The notes beneath the pieces were generated by a model that was not told where the DNA came from, made no database searches, and saw only the letters and a program-made list of their open reading frames with translations. The position numbers and the translations under genes are program-made. Below are positions 3,739 to 38,443 of a stretch of DNA of 44,711 nt, one piece after another. Source of the DNA: Acidobacteriota bacterium (GTDB lineage Bacteria > Acidobacteriota > Thermoanaerobaculia > Thermoanaerobaculales > Sulfomarinibacteraceae); assembly GCA_024641545.1 (NCBI GenBank), contig JAHECW010000024.1, positions 1 to 44,711 of the forward strand. The letters run 5' to 3'. Each line of letters begins with the position of its first letter. Positions within the stretch are counted from its first letter, which is position 1.

Positions 3739-4818
3739 TTACTTGAGGTCGGGATACAACTCCTGCATCACCAGTTTTGGTTTTCGGTCCACCGTAAAGA
3801 GGCCAAAGTGCTTTTCCGCACCGTCGGGATTGTTCGGGTCACCCTTCCAGTCTTCATCGAACGCCTCGAACCAGAACGTGGTGACATTCAGTTTTGCGGC
3901 CCATTCGGTGACTTCCTTGAAGTACCTGCGCTGATTCTCCTCGCTCGCTCGATCACCGAACTCGCTCGCAGTCGTGGCCCACCCGACCTCACCGATGATG
4001 AGCTCGGCGCCGGGCAGGGCCTTCCGAACCGTCTCGATGTTCCCGGCGGTGAACGCCAGGGCCTCATCCACGCCCCTCTCGGCCCAGATCGGATACGAGT
4101 GAACCGTGACGAAATCGAGTTCCCTGGCCAGGGGTTTCCCGTTCTCGGCCCACCACGCGAAGTTCTCGGCTACGGTGACGCGCTGCGAGATGGACCTCTT
4201 CACCTTCCTGACATAGGAGATGACTTTGTCAACGTCGACCTTGTGATCAGTCCAGGACACGAGCGCCTCATTTCCCACACTGACCGCGATCACGACGTCC
4301 CGGAACTCGTTGGCCAGCTCGATGGCTCTCGCGACCTCCTGCTTGTTCTCCTTCTTGTTGTTCTCCAAGGTTGCGTCCGGAATCGGCTCGTCGAGCCATG
4401 GGCATGCTCGGTGGTTGCTGATCTCGGCACTCAACCAGACACCGAGCATGACCCTCAGCGGGAGTTGGTTTTCCCGGATCAACTTCAACACGGTTCTCGC
4501 GTTTTCCCTGGAATCATACAGACGGATGAGACCGAAGTTCAGGTCGCGGGTCAGGATCTTCAGGTCGTCGAGAATCTCCTCATCGGAAGGGTTGGCCGCG
4601 CCATCACCACGGTCGGGGTGCTGGCCGGCACGATAACCCGAGTATGCGACCGCGTACCTGGGCCTGATCTGGGCGTCGACGCCTTTCTCTTGAACCGCGT
4701 CGGGGACGGGATCGGCGGGCTGATCGGCCGCCAATGGTCCCGGAAAGGTCACCAGCAGGGCCACGGCCGCCATCGCTGCCAGCGCGGGTGTGATCGTGCT
4801 CTTGAACGTGTGAATCAT
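3739..4818 (-). CDS. GH17 family beta-1,3-glucanase-like secreted enzyme
   Basis: A 359-residue glycoside hydrolase of family 17 (clan GH-A TIM barrel), a family of endo-beta-1,3-glucanases and glucosyltransferases. The acid/base is probably E184 in SVGNEALV and the nucleophile E277 in IIGEVGWAT; both motifs are characteristic. Strand motifs GLIRLYDS, VMLGVWL and VTVHSYPIW fit the barrel. The N-terminus, with TFKSTITPALAAMAAVALL, is a signal peptide ending near AAD. The ATG at 4818 is preferred over the one at 4824 because gaggag is then six bases upstream instead of directly adjacent. It is divergent from the TonB-dependent receptor and shares an upstream region carrying LacI-type operators, which fits a role in the same beta-1,3-glucan system. 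Confidence 0.9.
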   Translation of the reverse strand: MIHTFKSTITPALAAMAAVALLVTFPGPLAADQPADPVPDAVQEKGVDAQIRPRYAVAYSGYRAGQHPDRGDGAANPSDEEILDDLKILTRDLNFGLIRLYDSRENARTVLKLIRENQLPLRVMLGVWLSAEISNHRACPWLDEPIPDATLENNKKENKQEVARAIELANEFRDVVIAVSVGNEALVSWTDHKVDVDKVISYVRKVKRSISQRVTVAENFAWWAENGKPLARELDFVTVHSYPIWAERGVDEALAFTAGNIETVRKALPGAELIIGEVGWATTASEFGDRASEENQRRYFKEVTEWAAKLNVTTFWFEAFDEDWKGDPNNPDGAEKHFGLFTVDRKPKLVMQELYPDLK

Positions 4819-5030
4819 GGTCATCTCCTCTTCGATACGGTCATCCATGAAGGCGGCTCGCCGAGCATGACGGGCCCCGGGCTCAGGCGCCCCCTCTTCG
4901 TGAACGACGTTACGAGCAACTCCTTGAAATTCCCACCCGCTGCGCATCCCCGGCCGGAACCGTGAAACTGCTTCCTGCATGGCGTCGGGAAAAGGGCTGA
5001 GCCGGAGCATGAAAAGATGATGACAGAGGG

Positions 5031-5046
5031 TTGACAGCGTTGTCAA
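5031..5046. promoter_or_regulatory. LacI-type operator between GH17 and the receptor
   Basis: TTGACAGCGTTGTCAA is a near-perfect palindrome around a central CG, the usual architecture of LacI-family operators. It lies in the divergent region between the GH17 gene and the TonB receptor. A related site occurs before the locus's own lacI gene (26754-26769), which suggests control by that regulator. Confidence 0.65.
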
Positions 5047-5058
5047 TCTTCGCATATT
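5031..5058 (+). promoter_or_regulatory. Candidate sigma70-type promoter for the receptor
   Basis: A consensus -35 TTGACA (5031-5036), a 16-base spacer and CATATT (5053-5058) as -10 form a reasonable promoter toward the receptor. The operator fully covers the -35, so bound repressor would block it. On the opposite strand another TTGACA (5046-5041), with catcat 18 bases further on, could serve GH17. The resulting leader to the receptor start would be about 400 bases, which is long. Confidence 0.4.
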
Positions 5059-5472: not shown

Positions 5473-8259
5473 ATGAAGTTCCATAATTTGCCGTGCCTGG
5501 CGCTCAGCCTCACGGGGATGTTTCTATTGAGCCTCGCGCCGGCGATCGCGCAGAGCCAAGAGGAGAGTCCAGGAGCCTCGGAGCACGAAACCGAGGCCCC
5601 CCAGACCGAGCCGGGGGAATCCGGAGCCGAGGAGGCCGACGCCGGTGACGGCGACCAAGAAAGGGACCTCGCCAGGTTCACCGACGAAATGACGGTCACG
5701 GCAACCCGGGTCGAGACCGAGCTCATGAAGACCCCCCTCTCGGTCAGTGCCTTCGACCAGGACGCCCTCGACCAGCAGGGCGTGCACAACGTGGGCGACC
5801 TGGCACAGCTCGTGCCCAACATGGACATTGCCACCATCAACGGCCAGTCCACTCCCGTGATCTCGATGCGCGGGGTGCGCTCGACAAACGAGACCGAGCT
5901 CGGTGACCCGGCGGTGGGCGTCCATTTGGACGGTGTTTACTCCCCCCGGATGCAGGGCGTCCTTGCGATGATGTTCGACAACGAGCGGGTCGAGGTTCTG
6001 CGTGGCCCCCAGGGCACCCTTTTCGGCCGGAACTCCACCGTCGGCAGCATCAACATCATCTCCGCCAAACCGGATCTCAACGCCAACTTCGGTCGCGCGG
6101 AAACGTTCCTCGGCAACTACAACCATCGCGAGTTCCAGGGTATGTACAATCTGCGGTTTTCCGACAAGTTTGCGATGCGGCTCGCCGGTCGGATCTTCAA
6201 GCGGGACTCGTACGTGGACGGCTACTGGGATCCCAATCAGTACGACCAACGGCACATCGCGCGTCTCGTGCAGGACGCCGAGATCATCGCTCCCGGTTCC
6301 TTCAGTGACTGCACCGATCCCCGGTGCGTTGCGCGCACCCAGCACTCGAACTGGTGGGCGGGCAATCCAACGATCGACATGCCGATCCGAGAGCTCGTCA
6401 AAGCCGACAACGACGACTTCTACCACAACGTCGACGAATGGGCCTACCGTCTGAACGCCCGCTGGCGGCCGAAAGACAACCTCACCCTCGACCTGGGCTT
6501 CCAGCACTATCGCAACGACAGTGCCGGCGGGGTTGATCTCGTCAACTGCGAGAAGCTCCGTGGCCGACCGACCTATGACTCGCAGGGTAACGTGACGGGG
6601 ACCAATGACTGCTCCGACCTGTTCCCGACCGACAGCACTTACAACGTCGTGGCCAACGTGCCGGGCAAGCTCTACCTCGACATCAAGTACCTGCGCGCCA
6701 ACCTGAACTGGGACATCAACAGGGACCTTCGATTCGTCTACATGGGAGGCTACGAGGATCAGGATCGACAGTCGGCCCAGGACATGGAACAGAGCCTGAA
6801 CGCCTGGGACGGCGCCATGTTCTTCCTGCCGGGCACAGGATCCACATCCTGGTCGCACGAGATCCAGCTCCAATCCTACGGCAACAAGAAGTTCAACTGG
6901 ATCGCAGGCGCCAATTACTTCCACGAGAAGACCACCACGGTGGGTTACTACGACAACTCGATCAACGACAAGGCATTCTGGGACCAGCCCAATCGCTCGA
7001 CCGACGCGTGGGCGCTCTTCGCGCAGGGGACCTACTCATTCACCAGCCAGTGGAACCTGACGCTTGGTTACCGTCACAGCGACGAAACCAAGCAGGACGT
7101 TGGCGGACGAACCTATACCTGCAACAACGACAATGGCTGCGCAACCGGTTGGTGGCAGCGGGACGTGCTCAACAGCCTGCCTGCAGATCACTGGGAGGAC
7201 CGAAGCCTCTACCCTGATTACACCGAGAATGACAACAAGGGCTCCTGGCGACACGACGACTGGCGGTTGGGCCTCGACTTCGACTTGAACGCCAAGACGC
7301 TGCTCTACGCCTATCTGGCGTCGGGCTTCAAATCCGGCGGCATCGGCGACGTGTTTTATGAGATCAACCCGCGCACCGGCGAGGAAATCAACGTTCGCAC
7401 AGAGTTCGGTCCCGAGGAGGTCATCACCCTGGAGCTCGGTTTCAAGAGCCGGCTGGCCAACGACAAACTCAGCCTGCGGGGGGCGTACTTCTACTCGGAC
7501 TATAACGACATGCAGTATGCCTCGGTCGGCGCCATCGCAATGACCGAGCGCTGGGATGTCGTGCGCGATGATAACGGCCTGCCGGTCCTCGACGAAAACG
7601 GCAATCCGATCTTGGATTGGGTGCCCGCCCCGATCATCGCGTACTACACACAGAACGTCCCCGGCGCCCAAATCCAGGGGTTTGAGCTCGAGTACGACTG
7701 GACCCCTTGGCTCGGTGGCCACATCTTCGGCTACGCCAGCTGGCTGGACACCCAGATCAACGAGGACTGGAACACCAAGTGGAACTACGATCCCGTCTAC
7801 TACTTCGCAATCGACTACGAGAACGCGGTCGATCCCGAGAACCCGCTGCTCCAAGTCAACCTCAAGGGCAACGAGCTCGCCGTATCGCCGCCGTTCAAGT
7901 TCCACGTCACCGGCGAGCACGTCTTCGACTTCGGCAAAGCCGGCGCGCTGATGCCCTGGGTCACCTTCCACTGGGAGGACGCCAGCTACCTGACCATCTG
8001 GAACGTGGACAAGCACACCGACGACATGGATTTCGTCATTCTTGACGAGGACATCAAGTACACCGACGACCGGCGCGCAGCCTGGTCGATGTTGCACGCC
8101 GGCCTGCGCTACTTCTACGGCAGGTGGAACTTCGAGGCCTACGGTTACAACCTGACCAATGAGGTGATCCAGTGGTGGGGCGGCGCCGCCGAGGGCGTGG
8201 CCAAGGGCAGCTTCAGCAGCCCCACCACCTACGGCGTCCGGGTTGGATACAAGTTTTGA
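5473..8259 (+). CDS. TonB-dependent outer-membrane receptor
   Basis: A 928-residue TonB-dependent receptor. A signal peptide (LALSLTGMFLLSLAPAIAQS) is followed by an acidic low-complexity segment. A TonB-box-like TDEMTVTATR precedes the plug domain (VPNMDIATINGQ, ISMRGVRSTNETELGD, VGVHLDGVYSPR, NERVEVLRGPQGTLFGRNS, GSINIISAKP), and a long 22-strand-type barrel ends in the expected terminal phenylalanine (GVRVGYKF). ATG at 5473 is chosen for the cggagggcg just upstream and because the signal peptide starts there. It has no SusD partner, so it resembles the sugar receptors of Proteobacteria more than a Bacteroidetes SusC. It probably imports beta-1,3-gluco-oligosaccharides; substrate is inferred from the neighbours only. 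Confidence 0.93.
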   Translation: MKFHNLPCLALSLTGMFLLSLAPAIAQSQEESPGASEHETEAPQTEPGESGAEEADAGDGDQERDLARFTDEMTVTATRVETELMKTPLSVSAFDQDALDQQGVHNVGDLAQLVPNMDIATINGQSTPVISMRGVRSTNETELGDPAVGVHLDGVYSPRMQGVLAMMFDNERVEVLRGPQGTLFGRNSTVGSINIISAKPDLNANFGRAETFLGNYNHREFQGMYNLRFSDKFAMRLAGRIFKRDSYVDGYWDPNQYDQRHIARLVQDAEIIAPGSFSDCTDPRCVARTQHSNWWAGNPTIDMPIRELVKADNDDFYHNVDEWAYRLNARWRPKDNLTLDLGFQHYRNDSAGGVDLVNCEKLRGRPTYDSQGNVTGTNDCSDLFPTDSTYNVVANVPGKLYLDIKYLRANLNWDINRDLRFVYMGGYEDQDRQSAQDMEQSLNAWDGAMFFLPGTGSTSWSHEIQLQSYGNKKFNWIAGANYFHEKTTTVGYYDNSINDKAFWDQPNRSTDAWALFAQGTYSFTSQWNLTLGYRHSDETKQDVGGRTYTCNNDNGCATGWWQRDVLNSLPADHWEDRSLYPDYTENDNKGSWRHDDWRLGLDFDLNAKTLLYAYLASGFKSGGIGDVFYEINPRTGEEINVRTEFGPEEVITLELGFKSRLANDKLSLRGAYFYSDYNDMQYASVGAIAMTERWDVVRDDNGLPVLDENGNPILDWVPAPIIAYYTQNVPGAQIQGFELEYDWTPWLGGHIFGYASWLDTQINEDWNTKWNYDPVYYFAIDYENAVDPENPLLQVNLKGNELAVSPPFKFHVTGEHVFDFGKAGALMPWVTFHWEDASYLTIWNVDKHTDDMDFVILDEDIKYTDDRRAAWSMLHAGLRYFYGRWNFEAYGYNLTNEVIQWWGGAAEGVAKGSFSSPTTYGVRVGYKF

Positions 8260-10028: not shown

Positions 10029-10733
10029 ATGCGTAGAATCGATGGTTCGTATGTCTCGATAGCGTTGGTGCTGGTCGTTTCGGCGGCGGCGGTCTGTGCG
10101 GCACTCACGCCGTACAGCCAGGACTTCGAAGGACTGGCTCCACCGTCGTCCGGTGGGTTGTTGGGCGACGGATGGCTGGTCTTCGGCAACGTCTTTGACA
10201 ACCTCGGCGTCTACCAATACGGCTATGGGCCCAATCCCGCCCCGAACAACATTGACGCACCGGCGTTCTGCCTGATCGCCTCAGGACAGGGAGGCGCCGC
10301 ACAAGGCGCACAGCAGCTGGTCGTCTTCAGCGATTACAACAACGGCGCCCACGGCAACCTCGATTGGGTCATTGAGTCCCTTGTATTTCAGGAACAGACC
10401 ATCGACGCCGCCGACGTCGGGCAAACCGTGGTCTTCACCTTTGATGCGAAGATGGGCGATCTGGCGGGAGCGTCCGAGGCCGCGGCGTTCATCAAAACGC
10501 TCGATCCGGCCGCCGGGTACGCGACCACGAACTTCGTGACAACCGACACGACTGCGATCCCGACGACCTGGGGGACCTACTCGGTCCAGCTGGCGATCGA
10601 TGCCGGGCTCGCCGGCCAGATCCTCCAGTTCGGGTTCCTGACGCGCGTGTCGAACTATGAGCCGTCGGGGGTGTACTACGACAACATCAATCAGCCGGTC
10701 CCGGTCGAGCTGATGAGCCTCTCTGTCGAGTAG
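10029..10733 (+). CDS. Secreted jelly-roll-like protein, paralogue 1, PVEL-type tail
   Basis: A 234-residue exported protein. After a signal peptide (SIALVLVVSAAAVCAA) comes one domain of about 195 residues that is repeated in the genes at 12546 and 13471. Shared stretches include YSQDFEGLAPPS, GWLVFGNVFD, YGYGP.PAPN, VVFSDYNN, VFQEQTIDAADVGQTVVFTF, TTWGTYSVQLAIDAG and GVYYDNI. The pattern suggests a jelly-roll carbohydrate-binding module; I do not recognise a named family. It ends exactly in PVPVELMSLSVE, a tail shared with the unrelated protein at 30520-31413. cagaggagg precedes the ATG. As the first gene of the operon it may be a surface glycan-binding protein. Function is inferred. Confidence 0.75.
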   Translation: MRRIDGSYVSIALVLVVSAAAVCAALTPYSQDFEGLAPPSSGGLLGDGWLVFGNVFDNLGVYQYGYGPNPAPNNIDAPAFCLIASGQGGAAQGAQQLVVFSDYNNGAHGNLDWVIESLVFQEQTIDAADVGQTVVFTFDAKMGDLAGASEAAAFIKTLDPAAGYATTNFVTTDTTAIPTTWGTYSVQLAIDAGLAGQILQFGFLTRVSNYEPSGVYYDNINQPVPVELMSLSVE

Positions 10734-10782
10734 GCCGGCAGCCACAGCTGAAGAGAAGCTTCGCGGGCACCCGGGCATCGTC

Positions 10783-12549
10783 ATGAGCGGTTGGAATACG
10801 CAACCTCCGAAGAAGTCGCGGCTCGTCAACGGCTCCACCGATCGGGCAAGTGGAGGCCTGGGCCTCGTCGTGCTCGTTCTGTGGGCCGTTGGGTCGGCGG
10901 CGGCTTCGACGACGCCTGATTGTCCACTAGGCGAGTCCTGCGCTCGACACTCACGATCGGCGGACACGAGCGTCGTGTCGACTTCAGGATGGCACCTATT
11001 CGTGAACGACCAACGATTCATCATCAAGGGTGTCTGCTACAACCCGGTGCCCGTCGGAAGCACACTGCGAAGCTGGGACACTCTCGATGAGGACATCCTT
11101 CTGATGCAGGGAACGGGGATCAACACCATTCGCACGTACTCTCCCATCGAAGAAGCCTGGGTCTTGGACCGGCTCGCCTCGGCAGGCATCAAGGTCATCA
11201 TGGGGTTCACCGCGTACTCGGGCGCCTACAACATCAACAACGGCGGGTATCTCACCTATGTCGACTCCTTCAAAGACCACGATGCGATCCTGATGTGGGA
11301 GCTCGGCAACGAGTACAACTACCACCCGGAATGGTTCGGTGGTGACGTCAACAACTGGTACGCGATGCTCGAGAACGCGGCGCAGCAGATCCATCTGATC
11401 GACCCGGGCCATCCGGTTTCGACGGCGCACGGCGAGCTTCCATCGGTGACGACGCTGGCCATGGTGCCGAGCGTCGATGTCTGGGGAATGAACGTCTACC
11501 GTTGGGATTTCTCGCACCACGCAATCACCGATTTCGCGGCGATCAGCGACAAGCCCTGCTATCTCTCCGAGACCGGCGGCGACAGCTACAACAGTGCTCC
11601 GTCACATCCGACCTACAGCTTCGGCGCCAACGAACAGATGCAGGCAGATGCGACCCAGGCCCTGCTGAACGGCGTCTTCGCCAATCTCGATGTCGGCTCC
11701 GGGGTGGCCTTGTTCGAGTTCTCCGACGAGTGGTGGAAAGCGGGCAACCCCGCCACCCAGGATCCCGGCGGAGCGGCCCCCTACAGCAGCGGGGTGCCGT
11801 ACGACGGTGCCCCGAACGAAGAGTACTGGGGAATTGTCGACGTGTTTCGGACCGAGAAACTCGCCTCCGGCATCGTCAACGCGGTCTACACCGGACCCGC
11901 CTGCCTGGTTTCCGCCCACGCCGGCTCCGATCAGTTTCTCCCCGTGGGATCGACGGGGACGACTCTCGACGGTTCCTCGAGCAGTCACTCGGGCGCTCTG
12001 GCCTTTGAATGGAGTCAATCCGGCGGTCCGACGGCGGTGACCTTCGCCGACCCCACTTCCATGCATCCGAGCGTCAGCGACCTCAATGCCGGTGTCTACA
12101 CCTTCAGTCTGACCGTGACCGGCGACTGCGGCACCTCCATCGACACCGTTCAGGTGACCGTGAACCAAACCGCCAACACCCCCCCAGTGGCCGACGCGGG
12201 CTCTGACCGGTGCTTGCCGTCGGGAACGGGCGCAACAAGGCTGAACGGATCTGCGAGCCACGATCCCGACGGCGGACCGGCGGCGTTGACCTTTGTCTGG
12301 GGACAGACGGCCGGGCCGGTCTTGAACATCTCCAGCTCGACGGCGGAGTCCCCGATGGTTTCCGGAATTGCCGACGGCGAATCGTACACCTTCGAGCTCG
12401 TGGTCTTCGACGGATTGGACACCAGCGCCCCGTCGAGCGTGACGATCTTGGTCGACCCCCTGTTCGTCGACGACTTCGAATCCGGCGACCTTTCCGGCTG
12501 GTCCGGAATCGGGCTCGACGGTGGTCCCGTGAGGAGGAGGGACTCATGA
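10783..12549 (+). CDS. Clan GH-A glycosidase with PKD-like modules and DGFESG-type tail
   Basis: A 588-residue exported enzyme. The TIM-barrel part (about 70-365) starts WHLFVNDQRFIIKGVCYNP and has the acid/base motif MWELGNEYN and a probable nucleophile glutamate in CYLSETGGDS, the two-glutamate layout of clan GH-A (GH2/GH5/GH72/GH158-like). Two PKD/Ig-like modules follow (SAHAGSDQFLPVGSTGTTLDG; VADAGSDRCLPSGTG). It ends with FVDDFESGDLSGWSG, a variant of the tail seen in five other proteins here. The exact family is unresolved; neighbours point to beta-1,3-glucan. The upstream ribosome-binding site is weak and the N-terminal region before the hydrophobic stretch is long, so the start could be further in. 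Its stop overlaps the next start in ATGA. Confidence 0.8.
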   Translation: MSGWNTQPPKKSRLVNGSTDRASGGLGLVVLVLWAVGSAAASTTPDCPLGESCARHSRSADTSVVSTSGWHLFVNDQRFIIKGVCYNPVPVGSTLRSWDTLDEDILLMQGTGINTIRTYSPIEEAWVLDRLASAGIKVIMGFTAYSGAYNINNGGYLTYVDSFKDHDAILMWELGNEYNYHPEWFGGDVNNWYAMLENAAQQIHLIDPGHPVSTAHGELPSVTTLAMVPSVDVWGMNVYRWDFSHHAITDFAAISDKPCYLSETGGDSYNSAPSHPTYSFGANEQMQADATQALLNGVFANLDVGSGVALFEFSDEWWKAGNPATQDPGGAAPYSSGVPYDGAPNEEYWGIVDVFRTEKLASGIVNAVYTGPACLVSAHAGSDQFLPVGSTGTTLDGSSSSHSGALAFEWSQSGGPTAVTFADPTSMHPSVSDLNAGVYTFSLTVTGDCGTSIDTVQVTVNQTANTPPVADAGSDRCLPSGTGATRLNGSASHDPDGGPAALTFVWGQTAGPVLNISSSTAESPMVSGIADGESYTFELVVFDGLDTSAPSSVTILVDPLFVDDFESGDLSGWSGIGLDGGPVRRRDS

Positions 12550-13454
12550 GAAACATTTTTCGTGTGGTGCTCTCATTCGTTGTAGTGACGATAGTTGCGC
12601 CGGCGGGATGGTCGGCGGTGACCGCGTACAGCCAGGATTTCGAAGGCATGGCCCCGCCGTCCCCCGGAGCGCTGCTGGGCGACAATTGGCTGGTGTTCGC
12701 GAACGTCTACGATCCCGGCGGAACCTATCTCTACGGCTACGGCTCCTTTCCGGCCCCGAACGACGGTGCCGCGTTCTGCGCCATCGCCACGGGGCAGGGT
12801 GGCCCGCCCCAGGGCGACCAGCAGCTCTCGGTCTACAGCGACTACAACAATCCCGACCACGGCGCCGGTTATCTCATTGAAACCAACGTCTTCCAGGAGC
12901 AGACCATCGCGGCCGCCGATGCAGGGACGACCGTCGTCTTCACCTTCGACGCGAAGTACGGGAACCTCGAGGGCGCTTCCGAAGCCGAAGCCTTTATCAA
13001 GACCCTGAATCCGGGCGCCGGGTACGCGACAACCAACCACGTCACCATCGACATGACCACAGTTCCGCCCTCCTGGGGCACCTACTCGATCCAGCTCGCG
13101 ATCGATAGTGGCCTCGTGGGTCAGATCCTCCAGTTCGGGTTCACCACGCGGGCGTCCAACTACGAGGGATCGGGCATCTATTACGACAACGTGAATTCCG
13201 AAGCCGCCTTGTTCGCCGACGGTTTCGAGTCCGGCGACCTCTCCGCTTGGTCCGGCGTGGGCCCCGACGGTGGGTCGTTTGGAGGACGTAACGCAACCCG
13301 TTTCAGCGCTTCGCTTCCGGATCGGGGCCGTTCCTTTGGTCCCGATAGAGCGAGGTCACAAATAAACGTACAAGCCGGATTCTCCGTCGAGAGGGCTGGT
13401 GATGCCACGCCGAGCCGGCGCGCGGCTCGGCCGCCTTCGACGGTCGTCCGGTGA
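12546..13454 (+). CDS. Secreted jelly-roll-like protein, paralogue 2, with extended C-terminus
   Basis: A 302-residue exported protein starting four bases inside the previous gene (ATGA) with gaggaggga upstream. The signal peptide (VVLSFVVVTIVAPAGWSA) is followed by the domain shared with the genes at 10029 and 13471 (AYSQDFEGMAPPS through GIYYDNVN), then FADGFESGDLSAWSGVG. In the other tail-bearing proteins the chain ends within about 15 residues of this motif. Here about 60 further residues follow, rich in Arg, Ser and Pro, and the DNA encoding them contains a hairpin (13321-13346). This looks like a lost stop codon with read-through of former intergenic DNA. It is a probable glycan-binding surface protein; the role is inferred from context. 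Confidence 0.75.
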   Translation: MRNIFRVVLSFVVVTIVAPAGWSAVTAYSQDFEGMAPPSPGALLGDNWLVFANVYDPGGTYLYGYGSFPAPNDGAAFCAIATGQGGPPQGDQQLSVYSDYNNPDHGAGYLIETNVFQEQTIAAADAGTTVVFTFDAKYGNLEGASEAEAFIKTLNPGAGYATTNHVTIDMTTVPPSWGTYSIQLAIDSGLVGQILQFGFTTRASNYEGSGIYYDNVNSEAALFADGFESGDLSAWSGVGPDGGSFGGRNATRFSASLPDRGRSFGPDRARSQINVQAGFSVERAGDATPSRRAARPPSTVVR

Positions 13455-14121
13455 GGAGAAGGAGTTTCTCATGAGCGGTTTGTTTCGTGTGTTGCTCGCA
13501 ACCGTTGTGGTGACGGCCGTTGCGCTGGCAGGATGGGCGGCGGTGACCGCGTACAACCAGGATTTTGAAAGCCTGGCCCCGCCGTCCCCCGGGGCGCTGC
13601 TGGGCGACAATTGGCTGGTGTTCGCAAACGTCTACGATCCCGGCGGAGCCTATCTCTACGGCTACGGCCCCTTCCCGGCCCCGAACGACGGCGCCGCGTT
13701 CTGCGCGATCGCCACGGGACAGGGCGGCCCGTCCCAGGGGAACCAGCAGCTCTCGGTCTACAGCGACTACAACAATCCCGACCACGGCATCGGCAATCTC
13801 ATCGAAACCAACGTCTTCCAGGAGCAGACCATCGCGGCCGCCGATGCAGGGAAGACCGTGGTCTTCACCTTTGAAGCGAAGTACGGAAACCTCGAGGGAG
13901 CCTCCGAAGCCGAAGCGTTTATCAAGACCCTCGATCCCAGCGCCGGGTACGCCACCACCAACCACGTCATCATCGACATGACCACCGTTCCGTCCACCTG
14001 GGGCACCTACTCGATCCAGCTCGCCATCGATGGCGGGCTCGCGGGTCAGCTCCTCCAGTTCGGGTTCACCACGCGAGCTTCCAACTACGAGGGATCTGGG
14101 GTCTATTACGACAACGTGAAC
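12618..14121 (+). repeat. Tandem gene duplication (two 579-base copies)
   Basis: The stretch 12618-13196 aligns without gaps to 13543-14121, with only scattered, mostly silent differences. The ends of the two copies keep the same spacing (573 bases between the GTG near the start and the GTG of the YYDNVN codons). This marks a recent duplication of the secreted binding domain. The signal-peptide regions are also alike, but the sequences after the domain are unrelated. Confidence 0.85.
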
Positions 14122-14652
14122 TTCGAAACCCCCCCGCCGTCGGTCAATCTTCACAAGTCGAGCAGCTTCATCATCGACCAACACGATCATGACGGCAGCG
14201 GAGATCTGACTCCCGGCGATTCGCTGCTCTACATGATCGTGGCCGCGAACAACTCGCCGATCGACGCCCTCGATGTGATCATCGACGACACTCCCGACCC
14301 GAACACCACCCTGACGGTCGGCACGACGACCACCACCGCAGGGACCATCGTGTCGGGCAACAACGGCGGCGATTCCGCCGTTTCCATCGCCGTCGGAACG
14401 CTTCCCACGGGTGATTCCGTGACCGTGGAGTTCGAAGTGACGGTCAACGACCCTCTTCCCCCCGGCGTGGAATCCTTCTTTAACCAGGCGGCCCTGACCG
14501 GGTCCAATCTCGAACCGATCGTGTCCAATACCGCCGTCAACACGCTCGGGGAGGGCGCACCCGTTCGGCCGATCCCGACACTGTCTTTCTGGAGCCTGAT
14601 CGTCTTCACCGCGCTGCTCGGCGGCACCGCGTTGTGGAGGCTCAGGTTGTGA
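13471..14652 (+). CDS. Secreted jelly-roll-like protein, paralogue 3, with DUF11-like domain and IPTL-CTERM anchor
   Basis: A 393-residue exported protein, 16 bases after the previous gene, with gaggagaaggag before the ATG. The signal peptide (FRVLLATVVVTAVALAGWAA) is followed by the shared domain (AYNQDFESLAPPS to GVYYDNVNFE). A DUF11-like repeat domain follows (GSGDLTPGDSLLYMIVAANN; NTTLTVGTTTTT; VTVEFEVTVNDPLPPGV; NQAALTGSN). The C-terminus is IPTLSFWSLIVFTALLGG followed by TALWRLRL, which fits the IPTL-CTERM sorting signal: motif, membrane segment, basic end. It is therefore probably cell-surface anchored or processed by a dedicated sorting enzyme, unlike its two paralogues. A glycan-binding role is inferred. 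Confidence 0.8.
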   Translation: MSGLFRVLLATVVVTAVALAGWAAVTAYNQDFESLAPPSPGALLGDNWLVFANVYDPGGAYLYGYGPFPAPNDGAAFCAIATGQGGPSQGNQQLSVYSDYNNPDHGIGNLIETNVFQEQTIAAADAGKTVVFTFEAKYGNLEGASEAEAFIKTLDPSAGYATTNHVIIDMTTVPSTWGTYSIQLAIDGGLAGQLLQFGFTTRASNYEGSGVYYDNVNFETPPPSVNLHKSSSFIIDQHDHDGSGDLTPGDSLLYMIVAANNSPIDALDVIIDDTPDPNTTLTVGTTTTTAGTIVSGNNGGDSAVSIAVGTLPTGDSVTVEFEVTVNDPLPPGVESFFNQAALTGSNLEPIVSNTAVNTLGEGAPVRPIPTLSFWSLIVFTALLGGTALWRLRL

Positions 14653-14748: not shown

Positions 14749-16362
14749 ATGGGTGTCCGCTATGCGACAAGCTCGAGGCCGAAACGGCGACCGCGGTCGC
14801 CCGCCGTCGCCGTCTGCCTCGCAGCGGTCATCTTCTCAGCCGCAGGCTGGGCTCACGGTGAGCTGGTGAACCCCGGGTTCGAGGACGCCGGAGGGTCCCT
14901 TTACGGGTGGCAGACCTTCGGAAACACCGCGGGAAACGTCACGGCCGATTCGAAAACACCCCACTCCGGCACGCACGTCGCGAACCTCTCGGGGCCTTCG
15001 AACAGCGGCGGGAGCACCTCGTACTCCGGCATCCTCCAGGGGCTCGAAACCGCGGCGGGCCAGCTGTGGACCGCATCCGCATACTTCCGCCACAACTCTC
15101 CTTCGCGCCTCGAAGACGAGAATCAACTGGTGATGAAGGTGGAGTTCTACCGACGGTTCGGCGGATATTACGGCACCGGCGACTTCATCAGCGAGACCGA
15201 GATCACCGCACTTGACGTCGACTCCCCCACCAACGTGTGGCGACAAATCGCCTTCAGCGCACTGGCCCCAGCGGACGCGGTCGAAGCCCGCATCGCGTTC
15301 GTCTTCGTGCAGCACGGCTCCGAGGCCGGAAACGCACTCATCGACGATGTCTCATTCACAGCGAGCGGCGTCGATCTCGGCCCGCCCGAAGGTCTGGCGT
15401 GGAAGCTGATCTGGCAGGACGAGTTCGACGGCAACACGGTCGACCCGAACAACTGGATAGTACTGGACGCCCACCTGATCAAGAACGGAGAGCTCCAGTA
15501 CTACGATCCGGAAGATGTGTATCTGGAAAACGGCTGCCTTGTGCTGCGCAGCAGGCAGCACGATCCGCCGGTGATCCGTCCCCATCCCGACGGTCACTCC
15601 GCCGAGTTCGAATTCACGTCGGGACTGGTCGAGGGCCCTGGGCTGTTCTCGCACACCTACGGATGGATCGAGATTCGCGCCAAGCTGCCTTCGACTCAAG
15701 GTATCTGGCCGGCTCACTGGATGCTTGGTGAGAACTTTCCCGGGGTCGGCTGGCCCCGCTGCGGCGAGGTCGACATCATGGAGCACCTCGGACACGATGT
15801 CGACACCGTCTACTTCACCCGCCATTGGGGAGATCCCTACACTCACCAGGGCACCAGCTACTCCGGCCCGGACTTTTCCCGGGACTTCCACACCTTCGCC
15901 CTTCACTGGACCGCGGAGGAGATGTTCTGGTACGTCGACGGTTTTCTCCGCTACCAGACCGACATTTCGGACGCCGGTGAGATCTACCAGCGGCCGTTCT
16001 ACCTGATCCTCAACACGGCGGTCGGGGGTTATTGGCCCGGACCTCCCGATCACACCACGGTTTTCCCTCAGTATCACGAGATCGATTACGTCCGCTGGTG
16101 GGTCGAAGGCGACCCCGGCGACTTCGACGCGGACGGTGACGTCGATGTCGCCGACCAGGCCGCATTCGCCGACTGTTACGGCGGTGACGGCAGCCACTGG
16201 AGCAACCCTGCCTGTCGATTCTTCGATCTCGACGCGGATGATGACGTCGACTGCGACGACTGGGATCAGTTTACCGACACGTGGACCGGCTCTCCCCCGA
16301 GCTCTCCGTTTCTCTCGCAGTGCCGGTCGCTGGAAGTCCGGCAGATCGGAGGCCGCCATTAG
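14749..16362 (+). CDS. GH16 laminarinase with CBM4/9-like and dockerin-like modules
   Basis: A 537-residue exported endo-beta-1,3(4)-glucanase of family 16. Order: signal peptide (VAVCLAAVIFSAAGWAHG); CBM4/9-like module (about 38-205: ELVNPGFEDAGGSLYGWQT to NALIDDVSF); GH16 catalytic domain (about 215-455: WKLIWQDEFDGNTVDPNNW; ExDxxE site E340-V-D342-I-M-E345 in CGEVDIMEHLG; HWMLGENFP; LNTAVGGYWPG); then a dockerin-like region with two calcium-loop repeats (FDADGDVDVADQAAFADC and FDLDADDDVDCDDWDQF). ATG at 14749 is preferred because gaaggagagg precedes it. The enzyme should cut laminarin-type glucans outside the cell. A dockerin in a genome with no visible cohesin is notable. Confidence 0.93.
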   Translation: MGVRYATSSRPKRRPRSPAVAVCLAAVIFSAAGWAHGELVNPGFEDAGGSLYGWQTFGNTAGNVTADSKTPHSGTHVANLSGPSNSGGSTSYSGILQGLETAAGQLWTASAYFRHNSPSRLEDENQLVMKVEFYRRFGGYYGTGDFISETEITALDVDSPTNVWRQIAFSALAPADAVEARIAFVFVQHGSEAGNALIDDVSFTASGVDLGPPEGLAWKLIWQDEFDGNTVDPNNWIVLDAHLIKNGELQYYDPEDVYLENGCLVLRSRQHDPPVIRPHPDGHSAEFEFTSGLVEGPGLFSHTYGWIEIRAKLPSTQGIWPAHWMLGENFPGVGWPRCGEVDIMEHLGHDVDTVYFTRHWGDPYTHQGTSYSGPDFSRDFHTFALHWTAEEMFWYVDGFLRYQTDISDAGEIYQRPFYLILNTAVGGYWPGPPDHTTVFPQYHEIDYVRWWVEGDPGDFDADGDVDVADQAAFADCYGGDGSHWSNPACRFFDLDADDDVDCDDWDQFTDTWTGSPPSSPFLSQCRSLEVRQIGGRH

Positions 16363-17843: not shown

Positions 17844-20800
17844 ATGAACAACCTGAACGAAGCTACAGTCTGCCGAGGAGCATCGCCGATCGCGACGTCG
17901 GACGCCGAGGTCCGGGGCCGGTGGGTGACGCTCGGGGCGGAGAAGTTCTACCGGATCGCCAACGCGGATCGCATGCCGCCCTTCCTGATGAGCCTTGTCA
18001 GCGATTCGGATCATTGGATGTTCGTATCGAGCAACGGTGGGCTGACCGCCGGCCGCGGGGACTCCGACAACGCGCTGTTCCCCTACTGCACCGAGGACAA
18101 GATCGAGGACAACGCGACGAACACCGGTTCACGGACGATCGTCTGGGCGGAACGGAGCGGAAAGCTGTACGTTTGGGAGCCGTTCAGCAAGGCCGGCCGG
18201 GGGCTCTATGACACCACGACGAACCTCTACAAGAACGTGGTGGGCAACAAGCTCGTCTTCGAGGAGGTCAATCACGATCTCGGCCTGAAGTTCCGATCGC
18301 TGTGGACGATGTCCGACAGGTTCGGGTTCGTCAAGCAGTCGGAGATCGCCAACACATCTGCCGTGCCGGTGTCGTTGAGCGTGCTCGACGGCATCGAGAA
18401 TATCCTGCCGTGGGGTGCGACCGAGGAGTTCCAGAGCCGCTTCTCCTGCCTTGGCGACGCGTACAAGCAGAACGAGCTCGACAAGGAGACCGGCCTCGGC
18501 ATCTACGCCTTCACCTCGATCCCCGGGGACAGCCCGGAACCGCACGAGGCGCTGCGGGCGACGGTCTGCTGGTCGACCTGCCCGGCCCGGGTCCCTCGCC
18601 TGGTCTCATCGGCCCAGTTGGACGTCTTTCGACACGGTGAAACGATCCGGCCCGAGACGCGAGTCTGCGGGCGCCGGGGTGCGTACTTCGTCCACAACAC
18701 GATCACCATCGCGGCCCGGGAGCATGCGCGGTGGCAGATCGTCGCGGATGTGTCGCGCGGTCATGTCGAGATCGCCGAGTTGAGGCGGCTGTTGAGGAGC
18801 AGGTCGGACCTCGGTCGGATGGTCGAGGCGGACGTTGCCGAGGGTTCCCGGAATCTCGAGGCGATCGTCGCCTCCGCCGACGGGCTCCAGCTCACGGGCG
18901 ACTCCCTCGGCTCCGCCCATCACTTCTCGAACGTGCTGTTCAACGTGATGCGGGGCGGCACCTTCGAGTCGTCGTACCGGATACCGGTCGACGACCTGAA
19001 CGACCTGATCCGGTCCTTCAACCGGAAGGTCCACGCTCGCCATTGCGAGTTCCTGGATTCGCTGGGCCACGAGATCGGCCTGCCCGAGCTCCTCGAACGG
19101 GTACGCGATCAGAACGACCCCCACCTGACTCGACTCGTCCACGAGTACCTGCCGTTGTCGTTCAGTCGGCGCCACGGGGATCCGAGCAGGCCCTGGAACA
19201 GGTTCTCCATCGAGGTCAAAGGTCGAAACGGCCGCAGGCTCCTCGGTTACGAGGGGAACTGGCGCGACATCTTCCAGAACTGGGAAGCGCTGTGCCACTC
19301 GTTTCCTGAGTTCGTCGAGAACGTCATCTGCAAGTTCGTGAACACCTCCACGGCCGACGGGTACAACCCGTATCGAATCACCAAGAAGGGATACGAGTGG
19401 GAGGTTCCGAGCCCGGACGAGCCGTGGTCCAACATCGGATACTGGGGAGACCACCAGCTGATCTATCTGCTGAAGCTCCTCGAGATGTCACGCGACTACC
19501 ACCCGAAGCGGCTTCACCGCCTGCTGACCGACGACATCTTCGTCTACGCGGACGTGCCCTACGACATCACGCCGTACGCGGACCTGCTGCGGGATCCCAA
19601 ACGGTCGATCGTCTACAACGTCGGCCGGGAGGCGGCGATCTCGGAGCGCGAGGCATCGATGGGGTTGGACGGTCGGTACGTCACCGACCGGTCGGGGGAC
19701 ATCTGTCGCGCCAATCTCGCGGAGAAGCTGCTGGTCCCCTTGCTGGCCAAGGTCTCGAACTTCATCCCGGGCGCCGGGTTCTGGATGAACACCCAGCGTC
19801 CGGAATGGAACGACGCCAACAACGCCCTGGCCGGTTACGGGGTGTCGATGGTCACCCTGTACTACGCCCGGCGGTATGTATCCTTCTGCCTCGACCTGTT
19901 CACCGGCGCCGAGCTCGACGAGGTTCGGCTGAACGAGGAGGTCGGGGATTGGTTCGACGCCGTCAGGACCGCTCTCGACGACACCCGCCCCATTCTCGCG
20001 GGGGACGACATCGACGACGCGGACAGGAGGCGCCTCCTCGACCGTCTCGGAGCGGCGGCCGAGGCACACCGGAAGAAGATCTACGAAAGGGGCTTCCGGG
20101 GGCGCCGCTCGGTCGTGGCCGTCCGCGACCTGGTGATCTTTTTCGAACTCCTCCAACGGTTCTTCGACCAAACCATCGGGCTCAACCGGCGCGCCGACGG
20201 TCTTTACCACGCCTACAACGTCATGACCGCGACGTCTGACGGCATCTCCGTCGGGCGCCTGCAGGAGATGCTCGAGGGCCAGGTGGCGGTGCTGAGCGCC
20301 GGCTGCCTCGAGGGCGAAGAGTGCGTGTCGGTGCTCGATGGGCTCCGCGGTAGCGGGATGTACCGGGCGGACCAGCACTCCTACACCCTCTACCCGGACA
20401 GGAGACTGCCGAGCTTCGCCGAGAAGAACACCGTGCCGCCGAAGCAGGCCGCACGATCCGAACTGATCGGCAGGCTGCTCGCGGACGGCAACACCGACCT
20501 GATCGAAGACGACGTCGACGGCGGGCTGCACTTCAACAGCAGGTTCCAGAACATCCGTGACGTCTCGGCGGCCATCGAGGGACTCGCCGAGGCGGGCTAT
20601 GCCGAGCTGGTTCGGAAGGACGGAGCGCTGATCGCCGAGATCTTCGAGTCCGTCTTCCACCACCGTGAGTTCACGGGTCGATCGGGAACCTTCTACGGCT
20701 ACGAGGGACTGGGTTGCATCTACTGGCACATGGTGAGCAAGCTCCTGCTGGCGGTGCACGAGTGCTGCCTGGCGGCGAGCACGGTCGACGACCTGGCGCG

Positions 20801-21377
20801 CGAGCGGCTCGTGACCTCTTACTACGACCTCCGCGCGGGGCTTGGATTCAACAAGTCGCCGGGCATCCACGGGGCATTCCCGACCGACCCCTACTCCCAC
20901 ACCCCGGGCGATGGCGGCGCCAGGCAGCCCGGCATGACCGGACAGGTCAAGGAAGAGATCATCACCCGGTGGGCCGAGCTCGGGCTGTTCGTGCGCGACG
21001 GGCAGATCTGCTTCGATTCGGTGCTTTTGCGCAGAGACGAGTTTCTGCCGCGCCCGGAGGCCTTCGAGTACGTCGATGTCGCGGGCGAACGCCGGACGAT
21101 GGGGCTCGAGCGGGGGACGCTCGCGTTCACCAAGTGCCAGACCGTGTTCTTGGTGCACCCGGCGGCCGACGAGCGGGTGGTGGTCCGATTCTCCGACGGC
21201 ACGGAGACGACCGTACTCGGCAACCGCCTCGGCCCGGAGCTCAGCAGCGAGATTTTCATGCGCACCGGAAAGGTCGCCCGCGTCGATGTCTTCGTGAACG
21301 CCGAACGGACGGTCGGTACGACGCCGGCGCCCCCGCCCGACTCAGGGCGTCCTGTCGCCGGAGGAGACGGCCCGTGA
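17844..21377 (+). CDS. Large cytoplasmic beta-1,3-glucan phosphorylase candidate (GH149/GH161/GH94-like)
   Basis: A 1177-residue protein without a signal peptide. Size and motifs fit the large inverting phosphorylases of GH149 (or related GH161), distant relatives of GH94: GRWVTLGAEKFYRI near the start, FSRRHGDPSRPWNRFSI, LGYEGNWRDIFQNWEAL, NIGYWGDHQLIYLLKLLE (Asp536 in WGDHQ) and QRPEWNDANNALAG (Asp657 in EWND, matching the GH94 DWND region that holds the acid). Such enzymes release glucose 1-phosphate from beta-1,3-oligoglucans with phosphate. The ATG at 17844 has gaggtgag upstream and starts seven bases after the previous stop. It overlaps the symporter gene by GTGA. The family is named from memory; which Asp is catalytic is inference. 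Confidence 0.78.
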   Translation: MNNLNEATVCRGASPIATSDAEVRGRWVTLGAEKFYRIANADRMPPFLMSLVSDSDHWMFVSSNGGLTAGRGDSDNALFPYCTEDKIEDNATNTGSRTIVWAERSGKLYVWEPFSKAGRGLYDTTTNLYKNVVGNKLVFEEVNHDLGLKFRSLWTMSDRFGFVKQSEIANTSAVPVSLSVLDGIENILPWGATEEFQSRFSCLGDAYKQNELDKETGLGIYAFTSIPGDSPEPHEALRATVCWSTCPARVPRLVSSAQLDVFRHGETIRPETRVCGRRGAYFVHNTITIAAREHARWQIVADVSRGHVEIAELRRLLRSRSDLGRMVEADVAEGSRNLEAIVASADGLQLTGDSLGSAHHFSNVLFNVMRGGTFESSYRIPVDDLNDLIRSFNRKVHARHCEFLDSLGHEIGLPELLERVRDQNDPHLTRLVHEYLPLSFSRRHGDPSRPWNRFSIEVKGRNGRRLLGYEGNWRDIFQNWEALCHSFPEFVENVICKFVNTSTADGYNPYRITKKGYEWEVPSPDEPWSNIGYWGDHQLIYLLKLLEMSRDYHPKRLHRLLTDDIFVYADVPYDITPYADLLRDPKRSIVYNVGREAAISEREASMGLDGRYVTDRSGDICRANLAEKLLVPLLAKVSNFIPGAGFWMNTQRPEWNDANNALAGYGVSMVTLYYARRYVSFCLDLFTGAELDEVRLNEEVGDWFDAVRTALDDTRPILAGDDIDDADRRRLLDRLGAAAEAHRKKIYERGFRGRRSVVAVRDLVIFFELLQRFFDQTIGLNRRADGLYHAYNVMTATSDGISVGRLQEMLEGQVAVLSAGCLEGEECVSVLDGLRGSGMYRADQHSYTLYPDRRLPSFAEKNTVPPKQAARSELIGRLLADGNTDLIEDDVDGGLHFNSRFQNIRDVSAAIEGLAEAGYAELVRKDGALIAEIFESVFHHREFTGRSGTFYGYEGLGCIYWHMVSKLLLAVHECCLAASTVDDLARERLVTSYYDLRAGLGFNKSPGIHGAFPTDPYSHTPGDGGARQPGMTGQVKEEIITRWAELGLFVRDGQICFDSVLLRRDEFLPRPEAFEYVDVAGERRTMGLERGTLAFTKCQTVFLVHPAADERVVVRFSDGTETTVLGNRLGPELSSEIFMRTGKVARVDVFVNAERTVGTTPAPPPDSGRPVAGGDGP

Positions 21378-22945: not shown

Positions 22946-24343
22946 ATGACGAAGGCAGTCATCACTCTTTCAGCCCGAGAGAAGCTGGGCTACGGACTCG
23001 GCGACACGGCGTCCCACTTCGTGTGGGACATGGTCGGGTTCTGGATCCTGATCTTCTACACCGACACCTTCGGCATCTCGGCCGCGGCCGCCGGAACGAT
23101 CATGCTCGTCGCCCGCCTGTGGGACATGGCCAGTGATCCGCTCATGGGCATCATCGCCGACCGCACCACGACCCGGTGGGGTAAGTTCCGACCGTACCTG
23201 CTGTGGGTCGCGTTGCCCTACGCCGTCCTCGCGGTGATGGCCTTCTCGACCCCGGCGTTCGGACCCACCGGCAAGGTCGTGTATGCCGGAGTCACCTACC
23301 TGCTGCTGATGACCGCCTACACGGCCATCAACCTGCCGTACTCGTCGCTCGGCGCGGTGATGACCGCCGACGGGTACGAGCGCGCGAGCCTGAACACCTA
23401 TCGCTTCATCTGCGCCTTCGCCGGGCAGCTCGTCGTGACCGGACTGGCGCTCACCCTGGCCCGGTACCTCGGTGGCGGGAATGACGCCAGGGGCTACCAG
23501 CTGACCCTGGTCGTTTTCGGGGCTGTCAGCTTCGTGCTCTTCATGATCGCCTTCGCCTCGACCACGGAGAGGATCCAGCCTCCCGCCACGCAACGGCCCT
23601 CCCTCAGGAAAGACCTCGAGATTCTGTTCGCCAACACCCCGTGGATCGTTCTCTCCGTGGTCGGGCTGATCTCGTTCATCATGTTCGCGATGCAGAACGC
23701 ATCCGTGGCCTACTACTTCAAGTACTACGTGGGAGATGCGGAGAACGTGCAGCTCTTCAACGTCATCGGCAGCGTCGCCCTGATCGCGGGGCTGCCCTTC
23801 TCCAAGCCGCTGTCAAAGCGTTTCGGCAAGCGAAACGTGTTCATCGGCAGCTCGTTGCTTTCCGGGATCGCCTTCGGCCTGATCGTCCTGCCAGGTGCAC
23901 GGGACCTCTCCACCATCTACCTCCTCAATATCCTCGGCAAGATCACCTACGCGCCTGCGGTCCCGCTGCTCTGGACCATGCTGGCCGACACCGCTGACTA
24001 CTCGGAGTGGACGACCGGCAGGCGGGCGACGGGCCTTTTCTTCTCGGCCTCGACCTTTGCCCAGAAAGCGGGCTGGGGAATCGGCGGCGCGCTCGCCGGA
24101 TGGACTCTGGCGGCGTTCGGCTATGCCGAGCAGAGCGCGGTGCAGAGCGCCGGAACCGTCACCGGCATCCGTCTGATGGTGTCGGTCTTCCCGGGGGTGC
24201 TGTCGATCCTGTGTGCGGCGCTGCTGGTGTTCTACCGGGTCGACGCCTCGACCTGCCTGCGGATGCAGGAGGAGCTGGAGGCGCGGCGGGCCGACGCGGC
24301 GGACCGGCCATCGACACCTGATTCCGCTGGAGGGACCCGATGA
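22946..24343 (+). CDS. GPH-family (MelB-like) sugar:cation symporter 2
   Basis: A 465-residue transporter of the same family as the gene before it: LSAREKLGYGLGDTASHF, then ARLWDMASDPLMGIIADRT with TTRWGKFRPY, and MLADTADYSEWTTGRRATG. Both family signatures are intact. It starts 24 bases after the first symporter and overlaps the GH3 gene by ATGA. The two symporters probably differ in substrate (for example laminaribiose or longer oligomers versus glucose). That division of labour is inference. Confidence 0.9.
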   Translation: MTKAVITLSAREKLGYGLGDTASHFVWDMVGFWILIFYTDTFGISAAAAGTIMLVARLWDMASDPLMGIIADRTTTRWGKFRPYLLWVALPYAVLAVMAFSTPAFGPTGKVVYAGVTYLLLMTAYTAINLPYSSLGAVMTADGYERASLNTYRFICAFAGQLVVTGLALTLARYLGGGNDARGYQLTLVVFGAVSFVLFMIAFASTTERIQPPATQRPSLRKDLEILFANTPWIVLSVVGLISFIMFAMQNASVAYYFKYYVGDAENVQLFNVIGSVALIAGLPFSKPLSKRFGKRNVFIGSSLLSGIAFGLIVLPGARDLSTIYLLNILGKITYAPAVPLLWTMLADTADYSEWTTGRRATGLFFSASTFAQKAGWGIGGALAGWTLAAFGYAEQSAVQSAGTVTGIRLMVSVFPGVLSILCAALLVFYRVDASTCLRMQEELEARRADAADRPSTPDSAGGTR

Positions 24344-37066: not shown

Positions 37067-38443
37067 TCACGGGGCGGTGGAGCTCCACATGTCGGTTCCA
37101 CCCGACTCGAAGCCGTCGTAGAACAACCCACAGTCGATCGCGACAAGTTGGCCGACCGCGGTTGTTCCGTTTCCTTCCCAGTCGGCAAAGCCGGAGACCG
37201 TCACGGCGGCAACCGGATCGGTCTCGACCACGTGCCGACCCGCCCCTACCGAAAGACTGGCGGAGAGAAACGGGCCCGCCCCGATCGGGGAGAAGAATGT
37301 CGGTGGCACGTGCTGACCGTCGAGAAGGACGCAACCTGTTCCGGTGGTGACGATCTCGGCCCAGTATTCTTCCGCGCCGCCCGAGCCGAAGTTGTCGATG
37401 TAGAAGGTATGTCTGCTGCCGAACTCGGTTGTCGGCCTGACCTCGATTTGGGACGCGTCGCCCGGCTCACCGGTGCCGGTGGCGACGCTGCTGATCGAGT
37501 ACCGGGCGACCTCGATGGGCAGGCTCGCCGCAATGTGGACGGCCTCGGTGATCGACACCTCGGCAACCTCGCCGGCGTTGAGCAGCGAGGGCGCACCGGC
37601 TTGCGGCGGATCCCACGTGATGACGGTGCCGTCCTCGATCGCGGCAACCCTGAGTTGGTCAAGAACCGCCGGTCGACCGGAGCTTGGCACCGCGACGACC
37701 TCGGTTCCGAACCTGGTGGTCGGTGAGAGCTGCTCCACCGTCTGGTCGCAGAATCCGGGATTGGGCAACGGAATGTAGGCGCAGGTGTTGGCGGCAAAGA
37801 CCGCGACGGGTGCGTCCGCGACCACGCTCGATCCCGTGAGATCGTCGCCGAAGCTCCCGCTCGCAAGTACAAAAATCGTGTCTCCTCTGTTCAGGTTGAC
37901 CTGCACCGGGACACCGGCCGGGATACCGACGGTGCTGACGGTGGTGGTGACGGTGGCGGTGGTCGCGTCTTGCGTGGCGACGACAGCGAAAGCGGAACCC
38001 CCGACTGCCCCGTCGCTCGGATAGGTCACCACCAGGTAGCTCATACCGAGCTGCGACTCAGGCTTGATCCGGAACGAACCGACGGATCCGGAACCGGCGC
38101 CGACCGCGGTCACCATGAAAGGGTCGGGCGCGCTCACGTGCACGGCATCCCCGATCGTGAGATTGGGTAATGGAACGGCGGCGGGCGGGATGGGGACACG
38201 GGTCGCCACCCCGGCGACCACGGGGATCGTCGCGAAGTATGGCGAGCCGATTGTCACGACGGTGTCGACCTCGCTCATGAGAACGAGATCGAGGGCCAGG
38301 TCGGGAAGGGTGCTTTCGAAGGGAAACGTCAGCCAGAACTCGGTTCCGACGTCCGCCGGGACCGGGTGGGCACCGGAGACGAGCAGAACCAGAATCAGCA
38401 GCGAGAAAACGGCGCGAGGCGTCGAAGAGTGCATACGCAACAT
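37067..38443 (-). CDS. Secreted IgGFc-binding-like protein with DGFESG-type tail
   Basis: A 458-residue exported protein: signal peptide (AVFSLLILVLLVSGAHPVPA), then a body resembling the IgGFc-binding N-terminal domain (PF17517-type). Family-like features are VGTEFWLTFPFE, VVATQDATTATVTTT, VNLNRGDTIFVLAS, DLTGSSVVADAPVAVFAANT with CAYIP, and CDQTVEQLSPTTRFGTEVV. It ends in FYDGFESGGTDMWSSTAP. Eukaryotic and bacterial members are extracellular; the bacterial role is unknown, possibly adhesion. It lies next to another tail-bearing secreted protein on the same strand, separated by a repeat, so they may be transcribed independently. Confidence 0.82.
   Translation of the reverse strand: MLRMHSSTPRAVFSLLILVLLVSGAHPVPADVGTEFWLTFPFESTLPDLALDLVLMSEVDTVVTIGSPYFATIPVVAGVATRVPIPPAAVPLPNLTIGDAVHVSAPDPFMVTAVGAGSGSVGSFRIKPESQLGMSYLVVTYPSDGAVGGSAFAVVATQDATTATVTTTVSTVGIPAGVPVQVNLNRGDTIFVLASGSFGDDLTGSSVVADAPVAVFAANTCAYIPLPNPGFCDQTVEQLSPTTRFGTEVVAVPSSGRPAVLDQLRVAAIEDGTVITWDPPQAGAPSLLNAGEVAEVSITEAVHIAASLPIEVARYSISSVATGTGEPGDASQIEVRPTTEFGSRHTFYIDNFGSGGAEEYWAEIVTTGTGCVLLDGQHVPPTFFSPIGAGPFLSASLSVGAGRHVVETDPVAAVTVSGFADWEGNGTTAVGQLVAIDCGLFYDGFESGGTDMWSSTAP

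Follow-up and report, generated by a model that had tools for sequence, protein, structure and literature searches.

A candidate carbohydrate-binding module with three different C-terminal tails in a predicted laminarin locus of an Acidobacteriota bacterium

We describe here a domain of about 195 residues, encoded three times in a 44,711-bp contig of an Acidobacteriota bacterium (JAHECW010000024.1, assembly GCA_024641545.1; the whole contig is called the window), as a candidate beta-sandwich carbohydrate-binding module (CBM) of an unnamed family that probably binds beta-1,3-glucan (laminarin-like). What we show is that the domain forms a sequence family, has a confident fold model and a recurring gene context, is fused to glycoside hydrolase (GH) family 16 enzymes, and bears C-terminal tails that recur; binding itself is inferred. 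Laminarin ranks among the major polysaccharides of algae, and little has been described of how bacteria other than Bacteroidota retain it at the cell prior to uptake. The module has no name, occurs in at least eight phyla, and is repeatedly linked to GH149 and GH16, which makes it a concrete candidate that can be tested at low cost and that would give numerous "hypothetical secreted" genes an annotation. One domain with three C-terminal tags in one genome amounts to a natural experiment. A preliminary description of this DNA had suggested that the domain may be a new CBM, which the predicted CBM-like fold, the GH16 fusions, and the glucanase neighbors leave as the best reading.

Three genes and three domain copies

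The domain is common to the open reading frames starting at positions 10029, 12546, and 13471 of the window, referred to as genes A, B, and C, whose first, second, and third domain copies are lettered likewise. Each gene encodes a Sec-type N terminus, as judged by eye. Their features are as follows.

10029..10733 (+), gene A, without a Pfam family: signal peptide, domain, and tail 1 (PVPVELMSLSVE)
10101..10691 (+), domain copy A: 290 bits, 72% identity to copy C
10695..10733 (+), tail 1: recurrent C-terminal motif VELMSFSVE-stop, from pattern searches of the own genome; also in relatives
12546..13454 (+), gene B: signal peptide, domain, and FESGD tail
12615..13202 (+), domain copy B: 391 bits, 89% identity to copy C
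13206..13286 (+), tail 2 (FADGFESGDLSAWSGVGPDGG): its DNA is homologous to 12457-12537, where the enzyme gene upstream has its tag end
13471..14652 (+), gene C: signal peptide, domain, DUF11, and IPTL-CTERM
13540..14127 (+), domain copy C: query for the searches and the structure model
14209..14529 (+), DUF11 domain of gene C: 31.9 bits, cutoff 24.6
14566..14646 (+), IPTL-CTERM sorting signal of gene C: 29.8 bits; also 24.9 against a cutoff of 20.5 and 24.8 against a cutoff of 20.8

The gene A product ends in ...QPVPVELMSLSVE-stop, and the gene B tail contains ...FADGFESGDLSAWS...; these tails, with DUF11 and IPTL-CTERM in gene C, are as first described, and the claim of one shared domain was borne out at 72 to 89% identity to copy C. 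The genes had also been called tandem, which holds for the adjacent genes B and C but not for A and B, which are separated by a GH158-like gene (10783-12549). A fourth copy was ruled out by a whole-genome search, in which the next match scored 13.3 bits.

Sequence family and predicted fold

Profile scans found no Pfam or NCBIfam family that covers the domain, in line with the earlier statement that it matches no nameable family, and by the models of these databases it is a family of its own. The best NCBIfam match, given by gene A, was to choice_anch_J (NF038128) at 14.1 bits (E, 0.042); membership was rejected, as the cutoff is 30 bits and 1 of 61 family members was weakly similar (E, 0.059). 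Pfam CBM_4_9 was seen in 2 of the 61 members (E, 0.037), and membership in it or in another Pfam family was likewise rejected, the matches (DUF6941, Tachylectin, and others) being scattered and weak. Searches of PDB chains with phmmer and with a profile detected no solved homologue by sequence, and a viral or plasmid origin was set aside since no relatives were found among viral contigs or plasmids. The domain, which the CBM models of Pfam do not recruit, may have a recent CBM family number; a literature search for novel laminarin-binding CBMs returned nothing that matched all terms.

A scan of 84,980 species genomes yielded 44 loci, and the domain spans at least eight phyla. Named carrier records come from Krumholzibacteriota, Eisenbacteria (Eiseniibacteriota), Effluviviacota, Planctomycetota, Armatimonadota, Acidobacteriota, Verrucomicrobiota, Bacteroidota, and Pseudomonadota (Alteromonas and Endozoicomonas), with one Myxococcales record. 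"Candidatus Polarisedimenticola svalbardensis" (L020) and genome G383, which is labeled as being of the same phylum as the window genome, have one and the same locus, in keeping with the placement of the window genome in Acidobacteriota. Invariant or nearly invariant residues, in copy C numbering, include W25, Y40, Y42, P48, N49, D76, Y77, N79, H82, W154, D191, and N192.

An AlphaFold2 model of the domain alone, built from a 61-row alignment with copy C as the query, is mostly beta strand, with a mean predicted local distance difference test score (pLDDT) of 96.6 and a predicted template modeling score (pTM) of 0.92, so that the domain is predicted to fold independently, as a CBM should. A Foldseek search of the PDB returned mostly CBMs (CBM16, CBM22, CBM4 [1gui], CBM27, CBM11, and CBM30) at E values of about 1e-5 to 1e-4, mostly with a probability of 1.00, and with template modeling (TM) scores of about 0.4 to 0.6. 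Because the matches mix several CBM families with non-CBM proteins, the fold is best called a CBM-like beta-sandwich and not that of one CBM family. The preliminary description had proposed this prediction and structural search as a check, naming a clear match to a known non-binding family as evidence to the contrary; the result was a confident beta-sandwich whose solved matches are mostly CBMs, and no such clear match occurred. Like CBM16, CBM22, and CBM4, the domain has this fold, as predicted and matched by Foldseek, and sits inside glycoside hydrolases; unlike them, it measures about 195 instead of 145 to 160 residues, gives TM-scores in the range above, lacks a sequence family match, and is often a stand-alone protein.

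A further comparison is offered by the C-terminal region of a Vibrio vulnificus GH17 enzyme, a beta-sandwich of unknown family that is carried on a beta-1,3-glucanase and binds laminarin, with about 150 residues, a three-tryptophan site, and CBM79 as its closest relative (PMC9026390). Both are beta-sandwiches of no named family, in our case as predicted, and tied to beta-1,3-glucanases, whereas the domain described here has conserved Tyr, Asp, Asn, and His residues and not the Trp set reported for that region.

Gene context

The domain also occurs as a discrete part of a carbohydrate-active enzyme, as is expected of a CBM: in six loci (L037, L042, L043, L044, L046, and L047), two tandem copies lie C-terminal to GH16 and Exop_C. 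The hosts are Alteromonas, a further Alteromonadaceae strain, and Endozoicomonas, and the GH16-fused copies form one clade in the tree. Relatives of the window's GH16, GH17, GH158, and GH149 proteins were present in 30 of the 44 loci, compared with 0 of 44 control loci; the proposed search for further members beside GH16 and GH17 genes thus found the domain recurring near all four families. A cleaner test relied on genomes sampled evenly across the phylum: 6 of 396 carry the domain and 11 of 297 carry GH149, and in all six carriers a GH149 gene lies about 3 to 12 kb from the domain on one contig. Around the domain in these six genomes lie TonB-dependent receptor, GH17, GH16, GH158-like, GH3, or LacI genes in varying order, and the link to GH149 recurs in other phyla.

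Several observations weigh against a beta-1,3-glucan-binding CBM. The TM-scores to single CBMs are moderate (0.4 to 0.6), the first Foldseek match is a phage tailspike domain, and non-CBM proteins of the same fold (a MAM protease and a cyanobacterial cyclase) match as well. The 44 control loci, drawn from the own genome, are shorter than the domain loci (129 kb in total versus 576 kb). Five of the six phylum carriers belong to one family, so the linkage to GH149 does not represent six independent events. Finally, 14 of the 44 loci, mainly from marine Planctomycetota, have no GH16, GH17, GH158, or GH149 relative nearby, and the domain family may therefore not be confined to one substrate.

NCBIfam already uses "choice-of-anchor" names for domains paired with many C-terminal anchors. 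The domain could be a surface domain of this type, structural or adhesive (binding matrix, protein, or ions) and merely traveling with glucan loci; like NF038128, it is secreted and has different C-terminal anchors, its tails vary by host as in such families, and the weak similarity of copy A and the 14 loci without glucanase genes fit as well. Since that similarity lies below the cutoff and touches a single family member, while the domain is fused directly to GH16 and tightly linked to GH149 across phyla, we consider this explanation unlikely. The ligand could also be another polysaccharide (e.g., cellulose, mixed-linkage glucan, xylan, or mannan) in a general glucan locus, given that GH16 and GH158 are not exclusive for laminarin and that some of the CBMs matched by the fold bind xylan, mannan, cellulose, or mixed-linkage glucan. 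This we hold to be improbable: the GH149 and GH17 genes that share these loci speak for beta-1,3-glucan, and cellulase or xylanase families are not among the commonest neighbors of the domain loci.

C-terminal tails

The tail 1 pattern (VELMSFSVE-stop) matched seven times in the own genome, six of these being real C termini of proteins whose remaining sequences look unrelated, and the tail 2 pattern (DxFExGDxxxW) matched at 63 sites; both reversed patterns gave 0 matches. Of the 34 places read, some of them twice, 28 have tail 2 beginning 20 or fewer residues before the stop codon, usually 16. Both tails recur in relatives, one of which has as many as 77 copies of tail 2, and no membrane helix was seen in either. 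That the tails are private to this locus was accordingly rejected. Among the papers searched, none contained the string DGFESGD. Gene C has the marks of an IPTL-CTERM/exosortase H substrate, with a signal over the cutoff and the exosortase XrtH encoded in the genome (TIGR04177, 125.9 bits versus 86; contig C43:41422-41868, L006). As this genome has one clear IPTL-CTERM protein (gene C) and one borderline, the enzyme may serve very few substrates. Judged by sequence, one domain is thus joined to three general C-terminal motifs of its host.

The tail 1 motif is also written PVELMSFSIE-stop (window 10704-10733, +), stands on secreted proteins, and co-occurs with FESGD in several relatives. A fuller tail 2 motif, FxDGFESGDTSxWSxxxP-stop, closes many otherwise different proteins in the own genome and several relatives, and no existing name for it was found. 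In the window, FESGD motif sites are located as follows.

12469-12501 (+), FESGD motif
13218-13250 (+), FESGD motif
41808-41840 (-), FESGD motif

Across the domain family, the tail varies by host. It is PEP-CTERM-like in Planctomycetota and Armatimonadota, FlgD/T9SS-like ("NYPNPFNP") or a short "...VKSLYR" in Krumholzibacteria and Eisenbacteria, IPTL-like in a Saprospiraceae genome (20.5 bits, slightly short of the cutoff), and another region of about 130 residues in Polarisedimenticola relatives. In members of the Krumholzibacteria and Eisenbacteria type (L009, L010, L013, L015, L018, L019, L022, and L025), the short tail is conserved as (W/F)GxVKSLYR and lies about 20 residues past the domain. 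At L008/L113 (G179), a further C-terminal module, about 80 residues long, is common to the domain protein and its opposite-strand neighbor, with the pattern PTVxI..C..N...GCT..D.I...HGxFVS...CAAR. Planctomycetota loci (L029, L033, L040, L041, and others) carry diverged tandem domain copies in long proteins away from glucanase genes, and these proteins share a different C-terminal region, ...FQYWxRDxxGGxPTSNFSxAxxITF.

Duplication history

Copies A, B, and C form one clade with support of 100/99, by which their independent acquisition was rejected, and their sequences record one lineage-specific duplication history. The ratio of nonsynonymous to synonymous substitution rates (dN/dS) among them is about 0.2, and on this estimate the copies are under purifying selection. 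The enzyme encoded at 10783-12549 itself has the C terminus FVDDFESGDLSGWS, so tail 2 is not special to the domain. Its tag-end DNA (12457-12537) aligned to the gene B tag (13206-13286) with a local score of 43, where shuffled sequences reached at most 14. Genes B and C also resemble each other in the DNA immediately upstream of their start codons. A tandem duplication spanning the enzyme tag end to the domain end would leave gene B with the domain and a captured tag, and gene C with DUF11 and IPTL-CTERM; tail 2 was thus probably captured from the upstream enzyme gene. About 64 further residues follow the FESGD motif in gene B, unlike its usual position near the stop codon elsewhere in the genome, and the tag may therefore not function there.

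These observations bear on the possibility that the domain binds sugar and the tails have no sorting meaning, that of gene B being a tandem-duplication accident and that of gene A a neutral remnant. The copied tag end and the non-terminal motif in gene B are what this would predict. Tails 1 and 2 nevertheless form the C termini of many secreted proteins that are otherwise unrelated, both here and in related genomes, which argues for a function, and IPTL-CTERM has its exosortase; we regard the absence of any sorting role as a serious possibility, if the less favored one. The original proposal that the module is distributed to different surface destinations is supported in part, by the recurrence of all the tails as C-terminal motifs and by XrtH for IPTL-CTERM, but not by tail 2, which looks like a by-product of duplication. 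Since the three copies end in three different motifs, they may sit at different places on or outside the envelope, and different destinations are plausible.

Proposed function

As a beta-1,3-glucan-binding module, the domain would act in Sec-exported proteins whose conserved aromatic and polar residues bind the glucan chains and which concentrate substrate near the GH16, GH17, and GH158 hydrolases. Oligomers would then be taken up by the TonB-dependent receptor and undergo phosphorolysis by GH149, and the gene C product would be expected to be processed by XrtH. Such a role would resemble that of the surface glycan-binding proteins of Bacteroidota polysaccharide utilization loci. The proteins are comparable to SusD-like and surface glycan-binding proteins in being stand-alone, exported, and encoded in the neighborhood of receptor (TonB-dependent), glycoside hydrolase, and transporter genes, and they may work alike. 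They differ in the beta-sandwich model, in the lack of a SusD family match for genes A, B, and C in the profile scan, and in the lack of a lipobox by eye, for which membership in the SusD or surface glycan-binding lipoproteins was rejected. A broader picture is more doubtful: a multi-phylum CBM family for beta-1,3-glucan, serving mainly for stand-alone capture beside TonB-dependent receptors outside Bacteroidota and distributed by three sorting tags, with FESGD and VELMSFSVE as undescribed signals.

Surrounding locus

The region at 3739-27946 brings GH16, GH17, GH149, transporter, and receptor genes together, and as predicted from sequence this gene set comprises the components expected of a locus for beta-1,3-glucan (laminarin) utilization. 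A marine laminarin locus with GH16 and GH149 together has been reported (PMC13188888). The neighboring genes are listed below.

3739..5052 (-), GH17 enzyme (start codon uncertain): 35 bits, cutoff 28.2
5473..8259 (+), TonB-dependent receptor
10783..12549 (+), GH158-like TIM-barrel enzyme with two PKD-like domains and its own FESGD tag (12469-12501): Glyco_hydro_2_C, 29.1 bits; K319L-like_PKD; 9oro GH158, E 4e-8
14749..16362 (+), GH16 enzyme: 71.9 bits
16514..17836 (+), GH158 enzyme: 9oro GH158, E 1e-107
17844..21377 (+), GH149 beta-1,3-glucan phosphorylase: NF058639, 1554 bits, cutoff 1150
22946..24343 (+), MFS_2 sugar transporter: 352.6 bits
24340..26643 (+), GH3 enzyme: 240 bits
26678..27946 (+), LacI-family regulator

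Elsewhere in the window, 37067-38443 (-) encodes a protein with an IgGFc_binding domain (173.6 bits), here in an environmental bacterium.

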